Assembly: GCF_900106535.1 (NCBI RefSeq)
Contig: NZ_FNOH01000015.1
Coordinates: 1-64,000, forward strand
Source of the DNA: Myxococcus xanthus
GTDB lineage: Bacteria; Myxococcota; Myxococcia; Myxococcales; Myxococcaceae
Direction of reading: 5' to 3'
DNA: 64,000 nucleotides
Part shown: positions 58,398-60,230 of the stretch, in pieces
Layout of the letters: each line of letters begins with the position of its first letter
How positions within the stretch are numbered: position 1 is the first letter of the stretch
Program-made: the position numbers and the translations under genes
Notes under the pieces: model-generated
Told to the model about the DNA's origin: nothing
Seen by the model: only the letters and a program-made list of their open reading frames with translations
Database searches by the model: none

Positions 58398-59960
58398 CTA
58401 CTCGCCTCCCGCCGTCTCGCAGCAGCCCGCGCCGATGGAGTCCTTGAGGATCTCCGTCTTGAGCAGGAAGGCACCGGTGGTGACGACCTCCACCCCCGCC
58501 GAGAGGCCCTTGACGATTTCCACCTCCTCGCGCGTGCTGGCGCCCAGCTCCACCGCGACGGGCTCGTAGAGCCCCGGCTGCTTGCGCACGAAGACCAGCG
58601 TCTGGCCTTCCGCGCGCTGGATGGCCGCGTGGGGAACCAGCACCGCCTCATGTTCCGGGGCGACCTGGACCCTTGCCCTGAGGAAGAGCCCGGCCTTGAG
58701 GGCGCCGTCGGGGTTGGGCAGTTCGACCCGGGCGCGCACCGTGCGGGAGGCCCGGTCCACCGACGCGCTCACGCGGGTGAGGGTGGCGTCACGCGTCTGT
58801 CCGGGCATGCTTTCGAAGGTGAGGGTGACGCGCTGTCCCGCGCGAACCTGGAACGCGTCCGCCTCCGGAATCTCCAGCAGGGCCCACATGGTGCTCAGGT
58901 CCGCCACCTGGATGAGCGGCTGTCCAGCGGATGCATGGCGTCCGGCGACGGCGTCTCGCGCCACCACCGTCCCCGCGAAGGGCGCCGACAGGGCATAGGT
59001 CCCCTGCGGGCCCTGGCCGTTGGCGCCCGCGGCGGAGAGCGCTGCGCGGGCGGCATTGCGCTCGGCCTCGGCCGCCGCGACCTCCGCCTGGGCGGTCTCC
59101 ACGTGTTTTCGTGCGCGGATTCCGCTCGTGGCCAACTGCTGCTCGCGCTCGAGCGCCGAGCGCGCCACCGTCAGCCGCGTCTGTGCCGCCGACAGCCGTC
59201 CCTGGTCCGCGCCCACGGCCCCCGAGGTGACCAGCACCAGTGGCTGGCCCGCCTTCACCTCGTCGCCGACGTCCACGCGGACGTCCGTTATCAGCGCCTC
59301 GCTGCGGGCGGACAGCTGCGCCAGCCGGTTCTGGTTGAAGTCGAGCTGCCCGACGACGTCCAGGGTCCGGGCAAAGGGCCGCTTCACCGCGCGACGTGTC
59401 TGGATGCCAGCCTCGCGGGCCGTCTCGGCGGACGCGAGACGGACGCGTGTGCCCGGCTCGGGGAAGGTGGGGGGCTGGGCACCCGCGGCCTTCACCAACT
59501 CCGGGTGGCAGTACGGGCAGACGGACTCCGGGAAGCCGTGCTCCCGGCAGTAGTCACCGGCCTCGATGAACTTCGCGACCAGCGACGGGTTGCATTTGGT
59601 GCAGCGGGACTCGGGGACCGCGTGCTCCTTGCACCAATCCTTGGGGGTGGTGTCCCGCGCGGTGAAGGTGAGGCCCGGGTTGCATTGGAAGCACTGGGAT
59701 TCGGGGACGCCGTGCTCACCGCACCAGTCGTCCTGGTCCTTGAAGACGTCGATGAGGTCGGGGTTGCACCGGGTGCACAGCTCCGCGGGGACGCGGTGCT
59801 CACAGAGTGCGACCTCGGACGGGGTGGACGTGCCTCCCGAGGCGACTGGCGGCGGTGAAGGCGCCTTCGCCGTGGGGGGACTCGCTTGTTGGCTGCAACT
59901 GGCGGCGCTCAGTGCCAGCAGCACCGCCAGGACGCTGGGGCCGACTCGGGAGGCACGCAT
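58398..59960 (-). CDS. RND efflux adaptor lipoprotein with Cys/His-rich N-terminal repeats
   Basis: The product is 520 residues. A lipobox (LSAASC, Cys about 22) anchors it to the inner-membrane periplasmic face. Residues 52-155 hold four repeats of the form C-EH-x(2)-P-E/A-x(2)-C-x(2)-C-N/H-P-x-L, spaced about 30 residues apart. The remaining 350 residues are a normal CusB/CzcB membrane-fusion protein: a barrel-sandwich hybrid with paired lipoyl-like halves, a helical hairpin (about 250-310) and beta-barrel and proximal domains (YEPVAVELGASTREEVEI). The cysteines and histidines could bind metal and deliver it to the CzcA pump. Neighbour: a small protein with two more copies of the repeat, whose TAG stop directly abuts this ATG. 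Confidence 0.92.
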   Translation of the reverse strand: MRASRVGPSVLAVLLALSAASCSQQASPPTAKAPSPPPVASGGTSTPSEVALCEHRVPAELCTRCNPDLIDVFKDQDDWCGEHGVPESQCFQCNPGLTFTARDTTPKDWCKEHAVPESRCTKCNPSLVAKFIEAGDYCREHGFPESVCPYCHPELVKAAGAQPPTFPEPGTRVRLASAETAREAGIQTRRAVKRPFARTLDVVGQLDFNQNRLAQLSARSEALITDVRVDVGDEVKAGQPLVLVTSGAVGADQGRLSAAQTRLTVARSALEREQQLATSGIRARKHVETAQAEVAAAEAERNAARAALSAAGANGQGPQGTYALSAPFAGTVVARDAVAGRHASAGQPLIQVADLSTMWALLEIPEADAFQVRAGQRVTLTFESMPGQTRDATLTRVSASVDRASRTVRARVELPNPDGALKAGLFLRARVQVAPEHEAVLVPHAAIQRAEGQTLVFVRKQPGLYEPVAVELGASTREEVEIVKGLSAGVEVVTTGAFLLKTEILKDSIGAGCCETAGGE

Positions 59961-60230
59961 CTACTTCACGCCCTTCTTGGAGAGTTCCGGGTTGCAGAGG
60001 ACGCACTGGGATTCGGGCCGCGCGTGCTCGGGGCACCAGTCACCCTTGGCCTTGAAGACGGGAGCCAGCTTCGGGTTGCAGCGGGCACAGAGGCTCTTCT
60101 GGACGCCGTGCTCGCAGCGCGGCTTCTCGGACCCGGCCGTCTGGGGCTGCTGGGCGGGCTTGCTCTCGTCGGCCAGGACGGGGGCGGCGAACAGGGACAG
60201 GACGACGGACAGCGTACGCAGCGAGTGCAT
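59961..60230 (-). CDS. Small secreted protein with two Cys/His repeats
   Basis: The product is 89 residues. AGGAG is nine bases before the ATG. A signal peptide (MHSLRTLSVVLSLFAAPVLA) is followed by two copies of the repeat found in the adjacent adaptor: CEHGVQKSLCARCNPKLAPV and CPEHARPESQCVLCNPEL. Each unit offers up to three cysteines and one histidine for a metal ion. I infer a periplasmic metal-binding or metallochaperone role for the same efflux operon. No enzyme motif. Stop and next start codon are adjacent (TAG ATG), which favours coupled translation. Confidence 0.85.
   Translation of the reverse strand: MHSLRTLSVVLSLFAAPVLADESKPAQQPQTAGSEKPRCEHGVQKSLCARCNPKLAPVFKAKGDWCPEHARPESQCVLCNPELSKKGVK

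Follow-up and report, generated by a model that had tools for sequence, protein, structure and literature searches.

A conserved Cys/His repeat in a CzcB-like adaptor and a small secreted protein of Myxococcus xanthus, a candidate metal-binding module of CzcA-type efflux cassettes

The locus lies near the end of the 64,000-nucleotide window, the whole stretch of Myxococcus xanthus DNA analysed here, where five genes are transcribed in the order P0005, P0004, P0002, P0001 and P0003 (Table 1). No base separates P0002 from P0001 and only 5 bases lie between P0001 and P0003, so that these three genes almost certainly share one transcript. For both P0001 and P0002, dN was lower than dS (0.10-0.22 against 0.19-0.72 in the case of P0002), and both reading frames are under purifying selection. 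P0004 is a conserved upstream neighbour of the cassettes of Myxococcaceae and Anaeromyxobacter; it may be a CzcI-like regulator or another metal protein. A DUF2277 gene, P0006 (54994-55299, minus strand), lies 6 bases downstream of CzcA; only the nearest relatives within Myxococcus have it at this place, and it was left out of the system.

Table 1. Genes and sequence features of the locus (positions in the window)
Feature	Position	Strand	Description
Pump P0003	55306..58392	-	CzcA-type HME-RND
Adaptor P0001	58398..59960	-	CzcB/ZneB-like periplasmic lipoprotein, 520 aa, lipobox LSAASC; four repeats N-terminal to HlyD fold
C-terminal GAGCC tail of P0001	58419..58433	-	found together with the repeats
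Adaptor repeat 4, CREHGFPESVCPYCHP	59502..59549	-	motif match
Adaptor repeat 3, CKEHAVPESRCTKCNP	59586..59633	-	motif match
Adaptor repeat 2, CGEHGVPESQCFQCNP	59676..59723	-	motif match
Adaptor repeat 1, CEHRVPAELCTRCNP	59760..59804	-	motif match
Small protein P0002	59961..60230	-	89 aa, stand-alone secreted: signal peptide and one repeat pair
Small-protein repeat 2, CPEHARPESQCVLCNP	59988..60035	-	residues 66-81 of P0002
Small-protein repeat 1, CEHGVQKSLCARCNP	60072..60116	-	residues 39-53 of P0002
P0004	60386..60688	-	secreted Cys-rich 100-aa protein, DECEDCSPNCVLCVCCPL
P0005	60723..61232	-	TlpA/ResA-like thioredoxin lipoprotein, WCPPC; gene upstream of cassette

The repeat has the consensus C-x(1,2)-H-x6-C-x2-C-[N/H]-P and occurs in four copies in P0001 and two in P0002. 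When the 64-kb window was searched in all six frames with the regular expression C-x(1,2)-H-x6-C-x2-[CH], exactly six matches were obtained, all of them being these repeats, and residue shuffling gave an expected mean of 0.0007 matches for P0001 and 0.002 for P0002. Both results agree with the preliminary description of this DNA, which placed four repeats before a CzcB-like fold and two in an 89-residue secreted protein. The uniform motif given there, on the other hand, stands only in part: the six repeats are real, but the first copy of each protein reads CEH (C-x-H) and the later ones CxEH. An early DNA-pattern search of the same genome returned 22 places and equally many in the control, the pattern being too loose. 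The profile of the repeat matches a single locus in this genome, and the adaptors of the four other HME pumps are devoid of it; six HME efflux systems have reportedly been studied in M. xanthus. The AF2 model predicts well-folded repeats within the adaptor, with pLDDT of about 90-97, and the linker between paired neighbouring repeats is 14 residues long in 204 of 262 cases. The number of repeats per adaptor ranges from 1 to 9 and, since adaptors with 1, 3, 5, 7 or 9 copies exist, each repeat is probably a self-contained unit. Planctomycete adaptors with 7 to 9 tandem repeats were seen at L206:6123-8408 (minus strand), L209 and L104. At L199:4790-9064 (plus strand), a 1424-residue frame called as one adaptor holds two repeats, its N-terminal 1000 residues being unexplained and possibly due to an over-extended start.

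The repeats of P0001 and P0002 fall outside every Pfam and NCBIfam family, all matches in these regions at E<=1 being sub-threshold. No relative of the repeat was found in the PDB by sequence or in a viral sequence collection, a Foldseek comparison of the AF2 model of P0002 with the PDB gave no fold match, and the literature search found no name for the motif; the repeat is absent from Pfam, NCBIfam and the PDB. Among 57 small-protein orthologues, only sub-threshold resemblances to no consistent family were seen, most commonly to DUF5879 and the B-box zinc finger. The repeat had also been set apart from the HMBD and YHS domains usual in such adaptors, a distinction that was upheld. The HMBD of CusB-type adaptors and P1B-ATPases (PF19335; gathering score 23.6) likewise stands N-terminal to the adaptor core and has the ligand order C-x2-H ... 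C-x2-C, but 10 residues separate its His from the second Cys pair, compared with exactly 6 in the repeat. P0001 gave no HMBD match at E<=1 and hhalign of the repeat with HMBD returned a probability of 7.7% over 12 columns, while another adaptor encoded in this genome (L197), used as positive control, was recognised by Pfam as a genuine HMBD protein. YHS/TRASH is absent among the Pfam matches listed. The TRIM B-box (PF25287) shares the pattern CxEHG...CxxC, weakly and below cut-off, with 42 of the 57 small proteins; P0002 itself scores 9.7 bits against a gathering score of 27 (best member, E 1.3e-5), and this eukaryotic family, which is without the second half of the ligands, was rejected. The CusF/SilB chaperone domain was also rejected, with no CusF-like match in Pfam or NCBIfam. 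The repeat module is real, conserved and apparently undescribed, within a machine of known type.

The remainder of the adaptor and the pump are clear members of the divalent HME-RND class of ZneB/CzcB and ZneA/CzcA. The P0001 core matches HlyD_D23 of Pfam (2e-42) and RND_mfp (5e-54) and has the parts of the HME-RND adaptors CzcB, ZneB and CusB, namely an HlyD_D23 barrel-sandwich, an alpha hairpin and a beta barrel. Its nearest solved relative, both by sequence and by fold, is ZneB (3lnn), which aligns only with the core (from residue 169) and has no counterpart of the Cys3His repeats. P0003 scores 1219.6 bits with the HME-RND model TIGR00914 (cut-off 701.45), its best PDB match being ZneA (4k0e). 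M573, M623 and M672, the three Met of the Cu(I) substrate site of CusA, align with N, L and E in P0003; since these Met are not kept, a Cu(I)/Ag(I) pump of CusA type was rejected. Pump position 140 is His in 91% of 81 cassette pumps versus 13% of 15 other pumps. A C-terminal G[AS]GC tail ends 83 of 90 repeat-bearing adaptors versus 0 of 18 repeat-free ones, several of which end in His-rich tails; the G[AS]GC tail may be a second Cys site.

In order to follow the module beyond this genome, 84,980 GTDB species were scanned with one narrow pattern, giving 203 confirmed stretches of which the best 80 were analysed. The profile search, proposed earlier for proteobacteria, was run beyond them and found the repeat in Myxococcota, Polyangia, Planctomycetota and some Desulfuromonadales. 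The module is present in 57 of 195 Myxococcota genomes and, counted over the phyla of the respective relatives, in 26 of 188 genomes (Sorangium, Polyangia), 40 of 246 (Planctomycetia) and 4 of 247 (Desulfuromonadaceae); MAGs of Armatimonadetes, Zixibacteria and Ignavibacterium are included in the best 80 of 203. The true spread probably exceeds the scan result because the pattern was narrow. The cassette is missing from some Myxococcus genomes and is therefore non-essential. A stretch titled Comamonas sp. KCTC 72670 (L050, BNCN01000013.1) holds a Myxococcus-like cassette at 94% to the query and is probably from a mislabelled myxobacterium.

Nearly always, the usual cassette is made of the small protein, the repeat-bearing adaptor with its C-terminal GAGC tail and CzcA. 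Among the best 80 of 203 stretches, 72 hold a repeat-bearing CzcB-like adaptor, directly followed by CzcA in 66 of the 72 loci, which confirms the tie to a CzcA-type pump made in the preliminary description. The small repeat protein is present in 59 of these 72 adaptor loci, with the order small protein, adaptor, CzcA in 42; it is listed after in 11, of which at least 7 are real (planctomycete-type loci) and the others reflect overlong ORF starts. In 6 of the 72, the small protein and adaptor have no adjoining CzcA detected by the test used, and in 13 of the same best 80 stretches, some of them cut by contig ends, the adaptor and CzcA are found with the small protein undetected. The rest of the best 80 of 203 are 5 repeat-thioredoxin fusions, 2 small proteins on short contigs for which no adaptor was detected, and 1 unclassified fragment. 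The modularity proposed earlier is accordingly seen over many genomes, in the adaptor, stand-alone and thioredoxin-fused forms. Neighbours of the cassettes include ArsR/SmtB regulators (10 loci), Zn/Cd-type P1B-ATPases (8) and CDF exporters, DmeF among them (8). On a planctomycete plasmid (L213), one strand carries czcC, a Cys-rich ORF, czcB with the repeat, czcA, the small repeat protein, cadA, trxA and czcD.

A further partner is suggested by P0005, an exported protein with WCxxC that matches Redoxin/Thioredoxin in Pfam, falls below the NCBIfam equivalog cut-offs and has a homologue at the same position in other Myxococcaceae. Of 65 repeat cassettes, 24 have a TlpA/ResA-like gene beside them in the same orientation, lying upstream in 11 (Myxococcia) and downstream in 13 (mostly Polyangia), where it often overlaps the pump gene by 4 bases. 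The other 41 of the 65 have no adjoining thioredoxin of TlpA type, which was counted against the preferred reading given below. Also weighed against it were the 13 stretches with no small protein detected, the Myxococcus genomes devoid of the cassette and the lack of a Foldseek match for the P0002 model. As a control, repeat-free pumps in the same loci were considered: a thioredoxin stood at 2 of 8, in both cases the gene common to the adjacent repeat cassette. The repeat pair is also found fused to a WCxPC thioredoxin lipoprotein, in one line with His in place of Cys at ligand 4. The existence of two arrangements, a third on the planctomycete plasmid, and the fusion makes an association by coincidence unlikely; the control set, at 8 pumps, is small. 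Repeat-thioredoxin fusions outside any CzcA locus were observed at L035-L039, L064, L066, L070, L105, L200, L201 and L211. The thioredoxin link, the GAGC tail and the wide phylogenetic spread are new relative to the preliminary description.

Evidence on the nature of the site comes from 386 distinct units of the fetched loci, aligned with an HMM made from regex-conforming units. Ligands 1 (Cys) and 2 (His) are invariant where aligned, ligand 3 is Cys in 382 units and Asp in 4, and ligand 4 is Cys in 378 and His in 7, a few units being gapped at a ligand column where the local alignment stops. No Ser, Ala or Tyr was found at the four ligand columns in the 386 aligned units; the HMM favours intact sites, so that badly decayed repeats could escape it, but isolated changes to Ser or Ala ought to be seen just as those to Asp were. 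Two small proteins of Desulfuromonadales (L118 and L124) have Asp for the first Cys of repeat 2 in addition to Asp at ligand 3 of repeat 1. Natural variants with Asp at position 3, some also at position 1, are the small proteins L118, L121, L124, L093 and L126. Both Asp and His are Zn-type ligands. As Cys is replaced by His or Asp only, and mostly singly, a metal site is predicted rather than disulfides, and a disulfide-domain reading is disfavoured. Given these ligand-type swaps and the metal-resistance neighbourhood, the repeat very probably binds metal through Cys, His, Cys and Cys; a preference for divalent ions is likely, the replacements being other metal ligands, which would fit the borderline ions Zn, Cd and Co.

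The reading preferred here, to which a probability of roughly 0.55 is given, is that the repeat is a small mononuclear metal knuckle which, as a module on a CzcB-like adaptor, captures divalent metal (Zn/Cd/Co class) in the periplasm, with a TlpA-like protein keeping it reduced. A toxic divalent ion in the periplasm would be taken up by free P0002 and by the N-terminal repeats of the adaptor, and could then be handed to the adaptor core or GAGC tail and to the CzcA entrance for export, by analogy with CusF and CusB for Cu(I). In the oxidising environment of the periplasm, the TlpA-like protein would maintain the Cys ligands in reduced form, a role modelled on that of TlpA towards ScoI and CoxB. 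The module also occurs as a periplasmic protein of its own, free or anchored to lipid. By analogy with CusF and CusB, transfer of metal to the pump is plausible, and the relay put forward in the preliminary description is reasonable and has partial support.

The best-surviving alternative is that the repeats are structural zinc ribbons with permanently bound zinc, having a role in assembly, such as that of the adaptor hexamer or docking on CzcA or another partner, and none in transfer. Structural zinc typically has a tetrahedral Cys3His ligand set, and the rigid linker (204 of 262 pairs) and the sub-threshold B-box resemblance (42 of 57 small proteins) are consistent with this reading. However, a free protein that is almost wholly repeat, copy numbers of 1 to 9 per adaptor and copies borne by thioredoxins suggest metal cargo, making structural zinc rather unlikely. 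A periplasmic metal sponge resembling SilE/PcoE, in which the repeats would buffer or sequester metal and raise tolerance with no hand-over to the pump, would agree with tandem sites numbering up to 9 in one adaptor and with a free protein that is secreted or lipid-anchored; it is improbable given that the repeats are physically within the pump adaptor, at a single locus, and that the same genome's other adaptors have none. Slightly less probable again is a thiol-redox or metal sensor whose Cys cluster would toggle between metal-bound/reduced and disulfide states to gate the pump and be reset by thioredoxin, for although thioredoxin adjacency and fusion and the Cys-rich GAGC tail fit it, a single Cys to Asp or His swap preserves a metal site and would break a disulfide pair.

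For the preferred capture-module reading, two known systems offer parallels. The CusF/SilB/CusB systems pair a small metal protein of the periplasm with an HME-RND adaptor bearing a fused module of like kind, and hand-over to the pump has been proposed (PMC4446572). P0002 and P0001 have this arrangement of a free small protein and the same type of module on an adaptor, but CusF takes Cu(I) and is built as a Met/Trp beta-barrel, whereas the present module is a Cys3His repeat of about 15 residues with no sequence kinship to it; P0001 also differs from CusB/SilB systems in having tandem repeats at the adaptor N-terminus and a non-Cus pump. TlpA reduces ScoI and CoxB (PMC6696091), and at the P0005 locus a TlpA-like WCxPC lipoprotein is likewise tied to proteins with Cys metal sites; the tie of P0005, however, is one of genome context and to metal efflux, while TlpA, ScoI and CoxB serve copper insertion into cytochrome oxidase. 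The broader proposal, that an undescribed Cys3His repeat family (free, on HME-RND adaptors and on thioredoxins) acts with a TlpA-type reductant as a redox-protected thiol relay capturing divalent metal in Myxococcota, Planctomycetota and other groups, is put forward tentatively. If true, divalent metal would have a thiol-based equivalent of the CusF-CusB-CusA path. The way in which divalent HME-RND pumps obtain their ion in the periplasm is understood less well than in Cus, which has a chaperone. A conserved cassette that brings its own stand-alone metal module, together with a likely reductant of thiols, would allow a chaperone path to be tested directly for a CzcA-type pump. In the hosts, predatory myxobacteria and planctomycetes, metal handling is of importance. 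The repeat would also supply an annotation for many proteins presently called hypothetical; the small repeat protein of the planctomycete plasmid carries the annotation 'hypothetical protein'. On the same plasmid, the position of the Cys-rich ORF (L213:1294-1707) resembles that of P0004.
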